64,000 bases of DNA from Aerococcus mictus (GTDB lineage Bacteria > Bacillota > Bacilli > Lactobacillales > Aerococcaceae): assembly GCF_003286595.3 (NCBI RefSeq), contig NZ_CP132985.1, forward strand, positions 434,001 through 498,000, in the 5' to 3' direction. Position 1 is the stretch's first letter, and every line of letters starts with the position of its first letter. A model generated the notes under the pieces. That model was not told the DNA's origin. It searched no databases and worked only from the letters and a program-made list of their open reading frames with translations. Of this stretch, positions 5,036-60,022 are shown in pieces. Both the position numbers and the translations under genes were made by a program.

Positions 5036-5205
5036 GAATACCGAAGTGTTAGGCAGAGGCTCCTGTATAAACATAAGCTATCGCCCAAAAATGTCGAGAG
5101 ACGCCAATGGGTAAAACAGAGATTGTCGAAATAAGGCTTTCTCCAGGTAGCTAAGAAATTTTTCTTTACGTTATACAGTGCTAAAACTCAGACGAAGCAA
5201 CTCAA
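5036..5205 (+). promoter_or_regulatory. M-box (ykoK) Mg2+ riboswitch
   Basis: The hallmark blocks of the M-box appear in order: GTTAGGCAGAGGCTCCTGTA (from about 5047), GCTATCGCCCAAAAATGTCG (5078-5097), AGAGACGCCAATGGGT (5097-5112) and ATTGTCGAAATAAGGCTTTC (5122-5141). This class binds Mg2+ and folds into a transcription-terminating form when Mg2+ is plentiful. The downstream Mg2+ P-type ATPase and intervening terminator fit that logic. Confidence 0.95.
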
Positions 5206-5226
5206 TCAACTGAGCTTATTAATAAT

Positions 5227-14133: not shown

Positions 14134-14145
14134 GTGCTTTAAGAA

Positions 14146-14262
14146 GGATGTGAGGACGCCGTCAGAGACTTGAATTGCTGGAGGAAAATACCATAAGCAC
14201 AGAATAACTGTGTGTTGGTATTTTCTGAAGCAACTTCAAGTCTGGCGTCTGAACTCGACTAG
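14146..14262 (+). repeat. Structured repeat copy A (3' of rsmA)
   Basis: A hairpin spans 14155-14249 with outer stem GACGCC / GGCGTC, then AGACTTGAA / TTCAAGTCT, TTGCT / AGCAA, an internal loop GGAG opposite TGA, GAAAATACC / GGTATTTTC, a second loop ATAA opposite GTT, and apical GCACAG / CTGTGT. Flanks GGATGTGAG (left) and CTGAACTCGACTA (right) recur in copy B, 39 kb away on the opposite strand. Strand is given as that of the upstream gene rsmA. Together with the terminator at 14305-14342 and the promoter at 14388-14416 this accounts for the 332-bp gap. Confidence 0.85.
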
Positions 14263-14304
14263 AAAGTGTGAGTGGAGCACATTTGATTAGCTAGTTCGTG
14301 TTTT

Positions 14305-14342
14305 AATAAGTGGCTAGGACATTTGTTCCGGCCACTTTTTTA
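14305..14342 (+). terminator. Terminator downstream of repeat copy A
   Basis: AAGTGGCtaGGA / TCCgGCCACTT hairpin followed by a T-run. It closes the tatD-rnmV-rsmA transcript after repeat A. Confidence 0.8.
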
Positions 14343-17079: not shown

Positions 17080-17101
17080 TATTGTGCGTAATTAGTGATT
17101 G

Positions 17102-17156
17102 AGAAGAGGTGTAAGCAGCATGCAAAACCATGCTACTTACACCTCTTTTCTTTATC
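17102..17156 (+). terminator. Terminator after veg
   Basis: Long hairpin: AGAGGTGTAAG / CTTACACCTCT continuing into AGCATG / CATGCT with a 6-nt loop, followed by TTTC TTT. Confidence 0.9.
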
Positions 17157-53016: not shown

Positions 53017-53056
53017 GAAAAAACGGAGTAGCCAGATTGTGGGCAACTCCGTTTTT
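53017..53056. terminator. Terminator at the right end of the kinase cluster
   Basis: AAAAACGGAGT / ACTCCGTTTTT stem with inner GCC / GGC, A- and T-runs on both sides. It can end the 155-aa gene (rightward) and the proBA transcript (leftward) after the repeat array. Confidence 0.88.
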
Positions 53057-53070
53057 GTTTGTATAATTTT

Positions 53071-53117
53071 TTCAACGCTGGATAGCTTTCGTCCTTTGAT
53101 GTGACTGTCGCACTCTT
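53071..53117 (-). repeat. Structured repeat fragment F
   Basis: On the minus strand GAGTGCGACAGTCACA is followed by CAAAGGACGAAA, nearly the same as the 5' arm of copy C (56694-56800). The 3' arm is missing. Leftmost unit of the array between the terminator and proA. Confidence 0.6.
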
Positions 53118-53232
53118 TAGTCGAGTTCAGACGCCAGCCTTGAAGTCACTTCAGAAAATTCCAACGCACAGTTCCCTGTGCTTATGGTATTTTCTTCCAG
53201 TGATTCAAGTCTTTGACGGCGTCCTCACATCC
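53118..53232 (-). repeat. Structured repeat copy B
   Basis: Hairpin 53130-53223. On the minus strand: GACGCC / GGCGTC outer stem, AGACTTGAA / TTCAAGGCT, TCACT / AGTGA, loop GGAA opposite TGA, GAAAATACC / GGAATTTTC, loop ATAA opposite GTT, GCACAG / CTGTGC. Compared with copy A, TTGCT / AGCAA has become TCACT / AGTGA: two base pairs changed on both sides. Confidence 0.85.
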
Positions 53233-53235
53233 TTT

Positions 53236-53352
53236 TAGTCGAGTTCGGAAGGGTGAGGGGATGTCCTTTCAGAAAAGTTGAACGACCAGCTTTGCTGGCC
53301 TTATCATCTTTTCCTCCAAGGAATCTCCCTCCCTGATCCTTCCTCAAATCCT
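53236..53352 (-). repeat. Structured repeat copy D
   Basis: Hairpin 53247-53343. On the minus strand: GGAAGG / CCTTCC outer stem, AGGGAGAT / ATCCCCT, CCTT / AAGG, loop GGAG opposite TGA, GAAAAG / CTTTTC, loop ATAA opposite GTT, GGCCAGC / GCTGGTC. Almost all helix sequences differ from A and B, yet both loops are identical. The right flank repeats GAACTCGACTA of A and B. Confidence 0.8.
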
Positions 53353-53356
53353 TACC

Positions 53357-53473
53357 AAACCTGCTCCGAGTGCAGATCGATCTCCACTTCACTAAAGTGC
53401 AAGAAATTCTTTTTAAGAATTTTTGCGCTTTAGTTCCAGTGTTATCGATCTTTAGTGCACTCTTCGCACTCTG
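53357..53473 (-). repeat. Structured repeat copy E
   Basis: Hairpin 53368-53462, starting 11 nt beyond the proA stop. On the minus strand: GAGTGCA / TGCACTC outer stem, bulge CTAAA, GATCGAT / ATCGATC, CACT / AGTG, loop GGAA opposite TGA, CTAAAGCGCAA / TTGCACTTTAG, apical AATTCTT / AAGAATT. The first internal loop is conserved; the ATAA/GTT loop is replaced by a longer apical helix. With F, B and D it fills the 492-bp gap 52982-53473. Confidence 0.8.
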
Positions 53474-54730
53474 TTATTCTCTGATTTGGCCTTGGCCGAA
53501 GATGGTGTATTTATAGGAGGTGAGTGCTTCCAAGCCCATGGGGCCGCGGGCGTGGAGTTTTTGGGTGGAAATTCCAATTTCGCCGCCAAAGCCAAAGACC
53601 TCACCATCGGTAAAGCGGGTCGACGCATTAACGTAGACACAGGCCGAGTCCACGTCATCCATAAAGCGGTTAGCGATGGCATAATCATTGGTTACAATGG
53701 CTTCGGAATGGTGACTAGAGTGTTCAGCAATATGGTCAACGGCCTCTTGGTAACCCTTAACTACCTTAATGGCAATTTCATAGTCCAAGTATTCCTCGTC
53801 ATAGTCGGCTGCAGTGGCTGGAATAACGCCATCGATATAGTCAGCGGTGACTTGGTCACCATGGATTTTAACCTGGTGGTCCTTCAGTGCCTGACCAGCT
53901 AGGGGGAGAAAATCTTTGGCAATAGCTTGGTCGACCAGGAGAGTTTCTAGGGCATTGCAGACAGAAACTCTTTGGGTTTTCCCGTTGATTAGGATGTTTA
54001 AAGCCATATCAAAATCGCAGGCTTCATGGATATAGAGATGACAGTTTCCTACTCCGGTTTCAATGGTTGGAATCGTGGCCGTTTGGACAACTCTTTGGAT
54101 GAGATTCTTACTTCCGCGGGGGATTAGGCAATCGATGGAATCATTCATGGTCATCATTTCCCCTGCTAAGTCATGGCTGGGGTTGTCGATAAACTGGATG
54201 GCAGCTTTAGGTAAGTCGACGGCTTCAAGGCCTTCTTGTAAGGCATGGACGATGGCTTGGTTGGTTTGAATGGTTTCCTTACCCCCACGCAGAATCACGG
54301 CATTCCCTGTTTTAAAGCAAAGTCCAGCGGCATCCGAACTGACATTGGGACGGGATTCATAAATAATACCGATGACCCCTAGAGGCACCCGGCGTTTACC
54401 GATCCTTAGGCCATTTTCATTGACCCACATGTCATCGACATGGTTAATGGGGTCGTCTAATTGGGCGACTTTTTCTAGACCTTGGGCCATAGCTTCAATG
54501 CGGTCTGGATTTAAGGTCATCCGTTCCACAAAAGCAGCTTTCAGTCCTTGTTCTTGGGCTTTTTGGCACTCTGCCTGGTTGGTTGAGAGAATATTTTCTG
54601 AGGCATTTCTTAGGGTTTGGGCCATTTGGATAAGGGCTTGGTCTTTTTTAGTCCGGGGTAAATTGCTGAGTTGACGGGCTGCCACTTTGGCATCTTGGCC
54701 CATTTGCACTAAATCAGCTGAATTAATCAT
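53474..54730 (-). CDS. proA: Gamma-glutamyl phosphate reductase
   Basis: A 418-residue NADPH-dependent dehydrogenase, second step of proline synthesis. Signatures include IGIIYESRPNVSSDAAGLCFKTGNAVILRGGKE (in parts; about residues 117-150), the catalytic Cys region QRVSVCNALETLLVD (about 252-266) and DVDSACVYVNASTRFTDGEVFGFGGEIGIST near the C terminus. Second gene of the proBA operon, 24 nt after proB. Its stop is followed by the E-D-B-F repeat array, then a terminator. Confidence 0.96.
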   Translation of the reverse strand: MINSADLVQMGQDAKVAARQLSNLPRTKKDQALIQMAQTLRNASENILSTNQAECQKAQEQGLKAAFVERMTLNPDRIEAMAQGLEKVAQLDDPINHVDDMWVNENGLRIGKRRVPLGVIGIIYESRPNVSSDAAGLCFKTGNAVILRGGKETIQTNQAIVHALQEGLEAVDLPKAAIQFIDNPSHDLAGEMMTMNDSIDCLIPRGSKNLIQRVVQTATIPTIETGVGNCHLYIHEACDFDMALNILINGKTQRVSVCNALETLLVDQAIAKDFLPLAGQALKDHQVKIHGDQVTADYIDGVIPATAADYDEEYLDYEIAIKVVKGYQEAVDHIAEHSSHHSEAIVTNDYAIANRFMDDVDSACVYVNASTRFTDGEVFGFGGEIGISTQKLHARGPMGLEALTSYKYTIFGQGQIRE

Positions 54731-55687: not shown

Positions 55688-56629
55688 ATGAAAGATTGGT
55701 TAAAAAATCACCCTAAAGCCTATATTTTGGGACTTATTTTACTTTATGCAATCATCCTACTTGGAGTAGATATTTATTATCCCAGTTTCAAAGCCACCAA
55801 CGAAGCCCAGCAGGAGGAAAAAGTTAGTCCAGACGATGAATTGGCCCAATTGAATCAAAAATTAACTGAGAAAGAGATAGGAGTGGCTGATTTAAAAGAC
55901 CAACGTATGCAGGGTGTGACCCTAGCAGATGTCCAAGCCCACCATCCCCAATACTCACTCACAGAGCTTATCCAAGCTATTCCGACCGAAGACCAGCCAG
56001 GTGATTGGCGGCTAAAAGTGGTTAATCCGCTTTTTCCCTTGACTGAACCAGTGGATATTCAGACCGCCACTGCCTCCAATGGTCAGCTTTATGATGAGCG
56101 TATCGAAGACCCTCTCAATCATTTAATGGAAGCCGCTCAAAAAGCCGGCTATCCCTTGACTATCGTTTCCGCTTATCGGGATGTCGATAGCCAGGAAAAG
56201 AACCGGCAAAGCATGATTCAGATGTATCAGGCAGGGGGCGCAAGTTTAGAGGAAGCTAAGGCTAAAACTGATGCCTACGTGGCCCCAACCCATGCCTCAG
56301 AACACAGCACTGGTTTAGCCCTAGACCTCTTGGGGACCGATTGGGTTCAAGCTAAGCGGGGGCTGGAAACGGACTATGCTAAAGAGGCTTCAGCCCAATG
56401 GCTTAGGGACCATGCTCAAGACTATGGCTTTATCCTCCGCTACTTAGAAGACAAGGAAGCTGTCACGGGTTATAATTTTGAGCCATGGCATTACCGCTAT
56501 GTAGGGGTTCCCACTGCCCAATATATTAAGCGTTACCAGCTCACTTTAGAAGAATATTTAGTCTTATTAGCCGCTCGTCAGGGGCAAAAACTCACTTACC
56601 AAGTGGATCCATCCTTGCCTACTGATTAA
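55688..56629 (+). CDS. Membrane-anchored D,D-carboxypeptidase (VanY/M15B)
   Basis: A 313-residue protein with an N-terminal signal anchor (about residues 12-31), a Glu/Gln-rich linker, and a LAS-type peptidase domain. Zinc and catalytic residues are visible: TIVSAYRDVDSQ (about 157-168), SEHSTGLALDLLG (His...Asp, about 203-215), and FEPWHYRYVG (catalytic Glu and zinc His, about 264-273). It should trim the terminal D-Ala from peptidoglycan stem peptides. It is divergent from proBA, with a TATACT about 30 nt upstream, and is followed by a terminator. Confidence 0.9.
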   Translation: MKDWLKNHPKAYILGLILLYAIILLGVDIYYPSFKATNEAQQEEKVSPDDELAQLNQKLTEKEIGVADLKDQRMQGVTLADVQAHHPQYSLTELIQAIPTEDQPGDWRLKVVNPLFPLTEPVDIQTATASNGQLYDERIEDPLNHLMEAAQKAGYPLTIVSAYRDVDSQEKNRQSMIQMYQAGGASLEEAKAKTDAYVAPTHASEHSTGLALDLLGTDWVQAKRGLETDYAKEASAQWLRDHAQDYGFILRYLEDKEAVTGYNFEPWHYRYVGVPTAQYIKRYQLTLEEYLVLLAARQGQKLTYQVDPSLPTD

Positions 56630-56661
56630 GGAGTCTGGGACAAAACTCTCAGACTCTTTTC
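56630..56661 (+). terminator. Terminator after the carboxypeptidase gene
   Basis: GAGTCTGgga / tctCAGACTC stem followed by TTTTC. Confidence 0.8.
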
Positions 56662-56683
56662 AAAATACGAACAATCTAATCAA

Positions 56684-56800
56684 AACGTGTTCCAGTCACA
56701 GGACGAACGTCCGCTTCAAAAACTGATAACGCTCAGTTTCACTGAGCTTATCTCAATTTTCTCCAGCGATTTCGTCCTTTGTGTGACTGTCACACTCTCA
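56684..56800 (-). repeat. Structured repeat copy C
   Basis: Hairpin 56694-56788. On the minus strand: AGTCACA / TGTGACT outer stem, bulge CAAA, GGACGAA / TTCGTCC, CGCT / AGCG, loop GGAG opposite TGA, AAAA / TTTT, loop ATAA opposite GTT, GCTCAG / CTGAGC. The flank GAGTGTGAC touches the stop codon of the HAD gene. Helices differ from A, B, D and E but loops match. Confidence 0.82.
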
Positions 56801-57976
56801 CTGATTAATAGCTTGGCTGAGATAGGCCTGGTCTTGACCAAAGGGGATGGTTTCTTGGGAAGGGCGCAAAGCTCCCGTATTATTGTCCCGGCCCTGGATA
56901 AAATACACCTGCTTAGGCTTGGCGTATTCTTTTTGGGCCTGGCTGACAAAATCTTGGGTCTTATCATTTAATAAACGGTTGAAGAGTACCCGGGTGGTGG
57001 AGGGAGAGAAGGCTTGAAACATCTGATAGTCCCCCATACTATCGCCAAAGACCGCCAAAGGTTCTCTATCTTGGTGTCTGGGTTGGATGAGCTCTTGAAT
57101 GGCTTGGACCTTACCTGCTGCCTTAGTAATCGGTGCATGACTTTCTAATTGGGCTTGGTAGCTGCCGGCCTCATCCTGTTTATAGGACATGCCGATAATC
57201 TCGGGCGGGTCAATCGGGTAGAAATATTTGACAGCCGTTTCCACCAGACTTTGGGGACTAGCGCTCACAATATAAGTGGCGATCCCAGCCGTATGCAAGC
57301 TCTGGTAGAGCTTAATCAATTCATTGGGAATGCGCAGCCCCTGGCTAAAGTGGGTGCTAAGACACTGTCTTGGGTCTCCTGACAAGGAGTAGGTCCAAGT
57401 GAAGTCTTTAATTGGAGCCCTTAAGCCATAAGCCAGGGCTTTTTTACCGAGGTCGACAAAGTCGGCTTCAGTGAAGTTTTGATAGAGAAAACTTGGACAG
57501 GAAGCGCCTGCTTGCTTAGGGAAGCGCTGGTTATAAGCCAAGTAAAAGGTTCGTATCTTACAGAAAAAATTGAAGAGTAAGGGATCAGCCTCAAGCCGGT
57601 CTTCTAGAGATTTTTGGCTTCTCTGATAGTTGTCTCGTTGGGGATAGAGCTTTTGGTAGTCAGCGATAATATCATCGATGAGCTCTTGAAAGCTGATTTG
57701 AGGTGCTTGGTCACTTATAGCTTGGTCGAGAGCCGCTTTATTTTGCTTTAAGCAGTTCTCCATTTCAGTAGGGGTTAATTGATAGGCTAAGTGGGCAGCG
57801 GTGTAGACCATGGTGTGGTCTTCAATATCGTTAAAGATGCTGGTATGGTCAAAGTCAAAAACAACATAGTTTTTTTGAGCTAGGGGAGTATCCCTTTGCT
57901 GTTGATGATTTTTAATCAACTGGTCAAGTCTTTGGTAGAGCTGAGGTTCCCAATTTTGGGAGGCAAGGTGAGGCAT
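56798..57976 (-). CDS. HAD-superfamily phosphatase
   Basis: A 392-residue phosphatase. Motif I is FDFDHTSIF (about residues 39-47, two catalytic Asp), motif II TYIVSASPQSLVE (about 248-260), and motif III/IV FGDSMGDYQMF (about 321-331) after a Lys-containing stretch. The large helical cap (about 60-220) and overall size resemble phosphoserine- or phosphorylcholine-phosphatase-like HAD proteins; substrate unknown. No signal peptide. The stop codon overlaps the edge of repeat copy C. Ribosome site AAAGGAG. Confidence 0.8.
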   Translation of the reverse strand: MPHLASQNWEPQLYQRLDQLIKNHQQQRDTPLAQKNYVVFDFDHTSIFNDIEDHTMVYTAAHLAYQLTPTEMENCLKQNKAALDQAISDQAPQISFQELIDDIIADYQKLYPQRDNYQRSQKSLEDRLEADPLLFNFFCKIRTFYLAYNQRFPKQAGASCPSFLYQNFTEADFVDLGKKALAYGLRAPIKDFTWTYSLSGDPRQCLSTHFSQGLRIPNELIKLYQSLHTAGIATYIVSASPQSLVETAVKYFYPIDPPEIIGMSYKQDEAGSYQAQLESHAPITKAAGKVQAIQELIQPRHQDREPLAVFGDSMGDYQMFQAFSPSTTRVLFNRLLNDKTQDFVSQAQKEYAKPKQVYFIQGRDNNTGALRPSQETIPFGQDQAYLSQAINQ

Positions 57977-59957: not shown

Positions 59958-60022
59958 AAAAAGTGCTTCAGACTAGTCTGATTTCCCTATAGGGAAGATC
60001 GACTGGCCTGAAGCACTTTTCT
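59958..60022. terminator. Bidirectional terminator between the TPR and AraC-type genes
   Basis: Outer stem AAAAGTGCTTCAG / CTGAAGCACTTTT with an internal TTCCC / GGGAA hairpin, A- and T-runs on both ends. Confidence 0.85.

Follow-up and report, generated by a model that had tools for sequence, protein, structure and literature searches.

Hairpin repeats of Aerococcus mictus and other Lactobacillales, a family that probably consists of small mobile DNA palindromes

Hairpin elements in the analyzed window

The DNA analyzed in this study is a stretch of 64,000 nt of Aerococcus mictus (contig NZ_CP132985.1, positions 434,001 to 498,000; hereafter the window). It carries five copies of a long hairpin element, named A to E, which were read at the places reported in an initial annotation and were found again by a covariance model (Table 1). 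This model, R1, was built from 17 sequences, five from the window and 12 from relatives, and its E-values are rough; it returned exactly five matches in the window and no other up to an E-value of 1. The places had thus been given correctly, whereas the length of about 95 nt had been set too short, the true core comprising about 117 nt.

Element A, on the plus strand, starts 11 nt past the stop codon of a ksgA-like gene (Pfam RrnaAD). It is followed by the remnant of a second element, in which the hairpin is gone and both ends, AAAGTGTGAG and TGGAGCACATTTGATTAG, are retained, and by a linker with a terminator-like hairpin that corresponds to the 3′ module of complete units; a similar module is present in other genera. 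On the minus strand, element E starts 1 nt past the stop codon of a proA-like gene and forms a single tandem array with D and B, behind which lie 31 nt from the 5′ end of a C-type element. The HAD-like gene upstream of element C (Pfam HAD) ends in a TGA stop codon whose last base is the first base of the element (1-nt overlap). Together with its linker, of which the linker-terminator module again has similar counterparts in other genera, C makes up a complete unit (56630-56799), and the direct repeat at its two sides coincides with the ends of two convergent genes. Compared as inverted repeats, A and B match over 66 nt (88%) and 59 nt (93%).

Table 1. Hairpin elements and associated features in the window.
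Feature	Position	Strand	Basis and remarks
Element A (A/B subfamily)	14145-14261	+	R1, E 1e-27
Remnant of a second element	14264-14290	+	By eye; end letters as in alignment A3
Linker with GTTCGTGTTTTAATA and terminator-like hairpin (14309-14341)	14291-14341	+	By eye
Terminator-like hairpin	53020-53056	.	By eye; between the E-D-B array and the convergent gene
3′-truncated C-type piece ending the E-D-B array	53086-53116	-	By eye
Element B, in tandem after D	53118-53233	-	R1, E 2e-26
Element D, in tandem after E	53236-53352	-	R1, E 1e-23
Element E	53356-53472	-	R1, E 8e-24
Direct repeat of 9 nt, ACTGATTAA, left of the C unit	56621-56629	.	One copy at the G001 site
Linker with GTTCGTATTTTGAAAAG and terminator-like hairpin (56630-56656)	56630-56681	-	By eye
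Element C, hairpin	56682-56798	-	R1, E 8e-27
Direct repeat of 9 nt, ACTGATTAA, right of the C unit	56800-56808	.	G001 comparison

The window also contains two short palindromes without a match to the family model (59959-60020 and 17101-17150, with arms 81% and 91% complementary) and an M-box (ykoK) riboswitch (5038-5206) upstream of an ORF of 880 amino acids.

Common fold, fixed loops and the level at which pairing is kept

Thermodynamic folding of both strands gave the same long hairpin for all five copies, as had been proposed from inspection by eye, with D being the least clear case. The ten folds (five copies, both strands) had z-scores from −2.6 to −7.9 compared to dinucleotide shuffles; the weakest were found for D (−2.6 and −4.1), for which 3 of 200 and 1 of 200 shuffles folded equally well. 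Oriented so that GGAR lies in the 5′ arm, the element has the end motif AGRRTGYGA, an outer helix of 7–8 pairs and a 5′ bulge of 4–5 nt, followed by a helix of 7–9 pairs, a helix of 5 pairs, TGGAR opposite TGA and a helix of up to 9 pairs. On top, there is another internal loop, which in A to D consists of AUAA opposite GUU, and then the apical hairpin, while the 3′ end of the element reads, for example, GAACYCRACTA or GGAGCANGTTT.

The internal loop with GGAR opposite TGA is present in all five copies, in agreement with the initial annotation. Among the 47 least redundant of 150 model-aligned copies, the bases G, G and A of GGAR and G and A of TGA are invariant and the T of TGA is found in 81%; the mean frequency of a column's commonest base is 0.73 where the column is unpaired and 0.57 where it is paired. 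The second loop, AUAA opposite GUU, had been described correctly for A to D; in E it is AAAA opposite CTT, and the wider family keeps AA (0.83 and 0.81) and little else. Similarly, the lower 5′ bulge, described as rich in C and A, is conserved in position but not in its letters (0.47–0.70).

The compensatory case noted between A and B, TTGCT/AGCAA versus TCACT/AGTGA, is correct, and the covariation of the helices extends to nearly the whole stem. In the 17 sequences of window and relatives, 33 of 35 pairs are altered on both sides and few pair changes are one-sided. Of the cells, 89.7% are paired, a value that none of 500 shuffles reaches (shuffled value 58.0%); cells changed on both sides number 204 compared to 67.4 in shuffles, and sliding the partner by one column lowers pairing from 89.7% to 44–45%. 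With 29 sequences from seven genera and two families, 38 of 41 pairs are altered on both sides. While nearly every pair changes in this way, TGGAR/TGA and the 5′ end AGRGTGYGA stay fixed. About a dozen subfamilies can be distinguished, which differ in their stems and have some parts in common; two chimaeric elements (L016, L028) combine the base of one subfamily with the top of another.

The covariation had initially been taken to suggest selection on RNA structure, which is not supported as the cause. Selection on an RNA strand would be expected to permit G·U pairs and not A·C. In alignment A6, which comprises 150 of 185 matches and is also the basis of the array, strict-nesting and tag counts given below, G·T was found 91 times and A·C 73 times among 5438 paired cells, and two MAFFT alignments gave ratios of 25:31 and 15:16 for their main helices. 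The outermost helix of the second MAFFT alignment (four pairs, 116 cells), with 16 G·T versus 5 A·C, leans to RNA. As a control, nine tRNAs from the fetched sequences had a ratio of 15:0; this control is small, and ARAGORN favours G·U, as does the covariance model. Since G·T exceeds A·C only slightly, stem pairing seems, on balance, to be maintained in DNA, through selection or through mismatch repair of hairpins, in elements that are better read as mobile DNA. Repair alone would not leave the constant loop untouched.

Distribution, nesting and position at gene ends

Genomic copies are numerous, with at least 147 in G003 (147 of 150 scored candidates match), 92 in G027, 75 in G014, 58 in G011 and 41 in G026. 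In a first sample of relatives, 22 of 60 genomes gave a match at E ≤ 0.01; at the same threshold, no match was obtained in four of 15 members of the genus (G005, G006, G009, G013). In the Lactobacillales as a whole, matches at E ≤ 1e-5 were obtained in 68 of 295 genomes and in 31 of 75 genera; this search scored 12 candidates per genome and applied stricter filters. An exact-pattern scan of genome contigs, in which records close to the window may be omitted, gave nine matches in other organisms, which were taken as chance. Near-identical copies occur at different, unrelated sites with differing flanks (12 in G166; eight in G026, six of one type and two of another). The loci inspected had been selected as dense or best-scoring and are not a random sample.

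Presence and absence differ between close relatives. The nearest of the genomes compared, G001, is colinear with the window (92–95% identity in most blocks, 87.5% in one block of 5.2 kb) and has no element at the sites of A and C. Element E is common to both, while in G001 a single other element replaces B and D. At C, the unit is flanked by two copies of ACTGATTAA, of which one is present at the G001 site, whereas for A the alignment with G001 could not be extended through the flanks as far as the junction. Between Aerococcus tenax (CP127381.1) and G001, a two-element insert after a stop codon differs in presence. Ahead of a sensor kinase gene, in its leader, G001 has a complete unit of hairpin and terminator that is absent from A. 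tenax. A C element with an intact apex in A. tenax houses two other elements in G001, B at the apex and F within the TGA loop. The two genomes also differ in the presence of another repeat of about 230–340 nt (start near GAGCATTCGTTC; L031 3465-3732 and L066 13258-13603). CP127381.1 (L031, L111-L114) is a record of 592 kb labelled plasmid with ppc, rsmG, mnmG, a parB-like gene and serS; these genes are usual on a chromosome, so the record may be a chromosome piece or a misassembly.

Such nesting was counted in a set of 75 elements, consisting of the five of the window and the 70 best of 87 matches in stretches of G001 and in A. tenax (the 17 lowest-scoring were omitted). Twelve elements sit in another element's apex and share its orientation (a motif rule gave 13, one of which was removed by eye as tandem), including one (L078) in which the host is a chimaera of two subfamilies, and seven lie in the TGA loop of another in opposite orientation. 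The rule sought apex and TGA-loop cases only and hence cannot show that stems are spared; moreover, the counts are copies and not independent events, and with several of them in one repeated composite the events are fewer. This composite of C, F and B is found repeatedly, at two loci followed by D as C(F,B)-D, which indicates that nested elements still spread, via transposition or recombination. A strict structural test on the joined flanks classified 4 of 150 copies as nested; hosts with two inserts or altered loops fail this test.

A distinct hairpin of 48 nt, found via its exact 17-base core ACGCATACTATATCTGT, is located between the 5-pair helix and GGAR of a host element in all 17 exact-core copies. 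The copies lie at loci L031, L064, L066, L069, L071, L075, L077-L081, L111 and L112, in hosts of several subfamilies, and the exact core does not occur in the window.

With respect to genes, 105 arrays were evaluated, a number in which nested copies count as arrays and some starts lie behind elements outside alignment A6. Upstream, the closest gene end is a stop codon on the same strand for 79 arrays, the start of a divergent gene for 21 and absent for five. Among the 79 stop-preceded arrays, 31 begin −4 to +4 nt from the stop codon, and in the 75-element set six arrays supply their own first one or two bases to finish it. A convergent gene lies opposite 54 of the arrays; no array among them has its end −4 to +29 nt from the stop codon of that gene, and one overlaps it. 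Elsewhere, one copy is located in a 5′ leader and one array begins 4 nt after an apparent tRNA 3′ end.

Many arrays close, as judged by eye, with a 3′-truncated element piece before a terminator. In G166 and G026, a near-identical unit runs through the linker with TTCG and the terminator and stops there. Complete units of this kind, about 170 nt long and with their own terminator, lie inside host inverted repeats in other genera. For analysis of their flanks, 39 units were taken and one (L037) was dropped, its terminator having been missed by the pattern. Flanks with at least 7 complementary bases were found in 15 of the remaining 38 units; shuffling gave 3.0, and none of 2000 shuffles reached the observed number. 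Direct repeats were at chance level. Ten of the 15 strong pairings include at least two G or C; the other five pair mainly an A-tract with a T-tract, a complementarity common at terminators. Pairing was weak in further units, extending over at most three bases in 8 of 38 and over four in 7 of 38. The complementary flanks thus place the units within inverted repeats of the host, for which terminator hairpins are the simplest reading. For the 75 elements, taken without a defined unit end, flank pairing was not distinguishable from shuffles. Insertion ends vary from the 9-nt direct repeat at C to the complementary flanks in G166, G026 and others; neither of the two was seen in pair 3 of the A. 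tenax/G001 comparison. At lysS, where G166 carries the element, no empty host hairpin was found, as G045 carries a different terminator-like hairpin with internal loops (L157).

Known families, candidate mobilizers and interpretation

The initial annotation had not recognized a described RNA motif, and no Rfam 15 family matched the element at gathering score. At this score, the window contains an M-box and tRNA only, and relaxed thresholds (12 loci; window 53050-53500) gave only unrelated weak matches. No description of the element was found in the published literature covered, outside of which lie most subscription journals and bioRxiv.

Profiles of three possible mobilizers were searched in 20 genomes each. 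The Y1 transposase (PF01797) of RAYT/IS200 type is present in nine, including G027, but was rejected as mobilizer because it is missing from G001, G002, G003, G011 and G014, five of the richest genomes. Reverse transcriptase (PF00078) is present in ten, including G001, G002, G003, G027 and G166; its absence from the carriers G004, G007, G011, G012, G014, G015, G084 and G088 argues against a group IIC intron or another reverse transcriptase in this role. IS110 (PF01548), found in six, is absent from G001-G003, G007, G011, G012, G014, G015, G027, G166 and others and was likewise dismissed. No recombinase or transposase family was detected in ten ORFs of the window and ten neighbor ORFs at seven loci of relatives.

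The element itself also differs from known mobile palindromes. It is 117 nt long and not 20–40 bp like REPs, and within 12 nt of the ends of 150 copies the REP tags GTAG and CGTC were found 0 and 4 times, below the 20.8 and 17.4 in shuffles. An integron attC-like site was rejected because the R″ (RYYYAAC) and R′ (GTTRRRY) 7-mers were found in none of the 150 copies on either strand (first and last 30 nt). With MITEs it shares that the copies are short, interspersed and near-identical; a direct repeat that might be a target duplication was seen at C (9 nt), and in the 38 units direct repeats were at chance level.

We favour, with a probability of about 0.6, the reading that the family consists of small non-autonomous mobile DNA palindromes, which would move as folded DNA into the tips of hairpins and into terminators. 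The kind of element, a mobile DNA hairpin targeting hairpin tips and terminators, is held more firmly than the mechanism, a structure-specific enzyme acting on folded DNA. By this mechanism, the element would move as single-stranded folded or cruciform DNA, the enzyme would read the fixed loop, and the element would be joined into the tips of other hairpins, chiefly terminators; bringing along its own terminator, it would do little harm to the host gene. Against this reading stands that neither a mobilizing enzyme nor an autonomous copy was found with the Y1, reverse transcriptase and IS110 profiles and in the Pfam analysis of the 20 ORFs; the enzyme may since have been lost from the genomes. 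The variable insertion ends, the partly A-tract/T-tract flanks, the lack of an empty host hairpin at lysS and the incomplete alignment at A likewise speak against it. It is possible, but to be proposed only tentatively, that the family represents a bacterial transposition system of a new type. The hairpin, which has no genes, would be recognized through the folded shape of its DNA, with the GGAR/TGA loop and the place of the bulge fixed and the stem sequence free, and an enzyme of a kind not yet linked to such elements would join it into DNA hairpin tips, chiefly those of terminators and of its own relatives.

Placement at stop codons and the single orientation could also reflect a function in the 3′-UTR. 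A structured RNA located there, whether regulatory, stabilizing or terminating, with selection on the RNA fold and spread as a by-product, would be in line with the sense orientation at stop codons, the complete units with their own terminator, the invariant GGA and GA of the loop and the G·T excess in the outermost helix. We consider it rather improbable in view of the main helices, in which G·T and A·C differ little compared to the tRNAs, of the differences in presence between close relatives, and of the copies in a 5′ leader and behind an apparent tRNA. Another alternative does without a dedicated enzyme: template switching in replication and hairpin repair would perfect the palindromes, and recombination between repeats would move them. 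The small number of one-sided pair changes, the chimaeric elements and the lack of a candidate enzyme from the three profile searches fit this proposal, as does the composite C(F,B)-D, which could spread through recombination between repeats. Repair should erase the asymmetric loop too, yet this loop is the most constant part across genera; together with near-identical copies at unrelated sites with differing flanks and with the nesting in loops, the only places the rule looked at, this makes the proposal unlikely.

High copy number, palindromic structure, location 3′ of genes and conservation of structure more than sequence, as well as Y1 genes in some carriers such as G027 with its 92 copies, would suit a REP with a Y1 transposase (RAYT/IS200) as its mobilizer, or a site similar to the attC of integrons. 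With PF01797 absent from five of the richest genomes, REP tags rarer than in shuffles and attC 7-mers lacking in all 150 copies, this is very improbable.

Small mobile repeats such as the MITEs bcr1 of Bacillus cereus and the MIRUs of mycobacteria are known from bacteria, the latter occurring at gene ends in one orientation. In the present family, stems differ between subfamilies and the loop is fixed. The family can further be likened to the double-hairpin elements of Allomyces mtDNA, which are reportedly selfish and nested organelle hairpins. The best functional analogy for mobile hairpins of the kind favoured here is provided by the short palindromic repeats of Volvox organelles, which are described as selfish hairpins of many classes with about 50 nt on average, often inserted inside one another and forming larger composites at several places (PMC2670323). 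The many hairpin classes, the nesting and the recurring composites are shared with the present family (PMC2670323); unlike the Volvox repeats as described there, it is bacterial and has a 117-nt core, a fixed internal loop, terminator-bearing units and sense orientation at gene ends.

REP/BIME sequences with RAYT are high-copy extragenic palindromes, mostly downstream of genes and possibly non-autonomous mobile DNA, of which the REPs have 20–40 bp with GTAG or CGTC tags (PMC2817692, PMC3733652). Many extragenic copies downstream of genes are thus a common feature, whereas the length of 117 nt, the lack of a tag and the lack of a Y1 gene in five of the richest genomes set the element apart from REPs. 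Insertion into or beside hairpins, including terminators, is likewise reported for IS elements, which target REP palindromes (PMC1525189), and for group IIC introns, which insert at terminators or attC hairpins (PMC7923331). These encode or need a transposase or reverse transcriptase, for which the present element is too short, and reverse transcriptase and IS110 are absent from several rich genomes. Further papers used for comparison were a stem-loop survey (PMC2267715) and RepRanger (PMC12306157).

If the family is mobile in the way favoured here, it would link two open problems, namely how palindromes without genes spread in bacteria without a known transposase and whether folded DNA, as opposed to sequence, can serve as a signal in transposition. 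As the stems vary freely and one loop is fixed, a candidate for the recognition signal is already marked. In many genera, the 3′ ends of genes are also reshaped by the elements, with terminators and long hairpins being added directly after stop codons.
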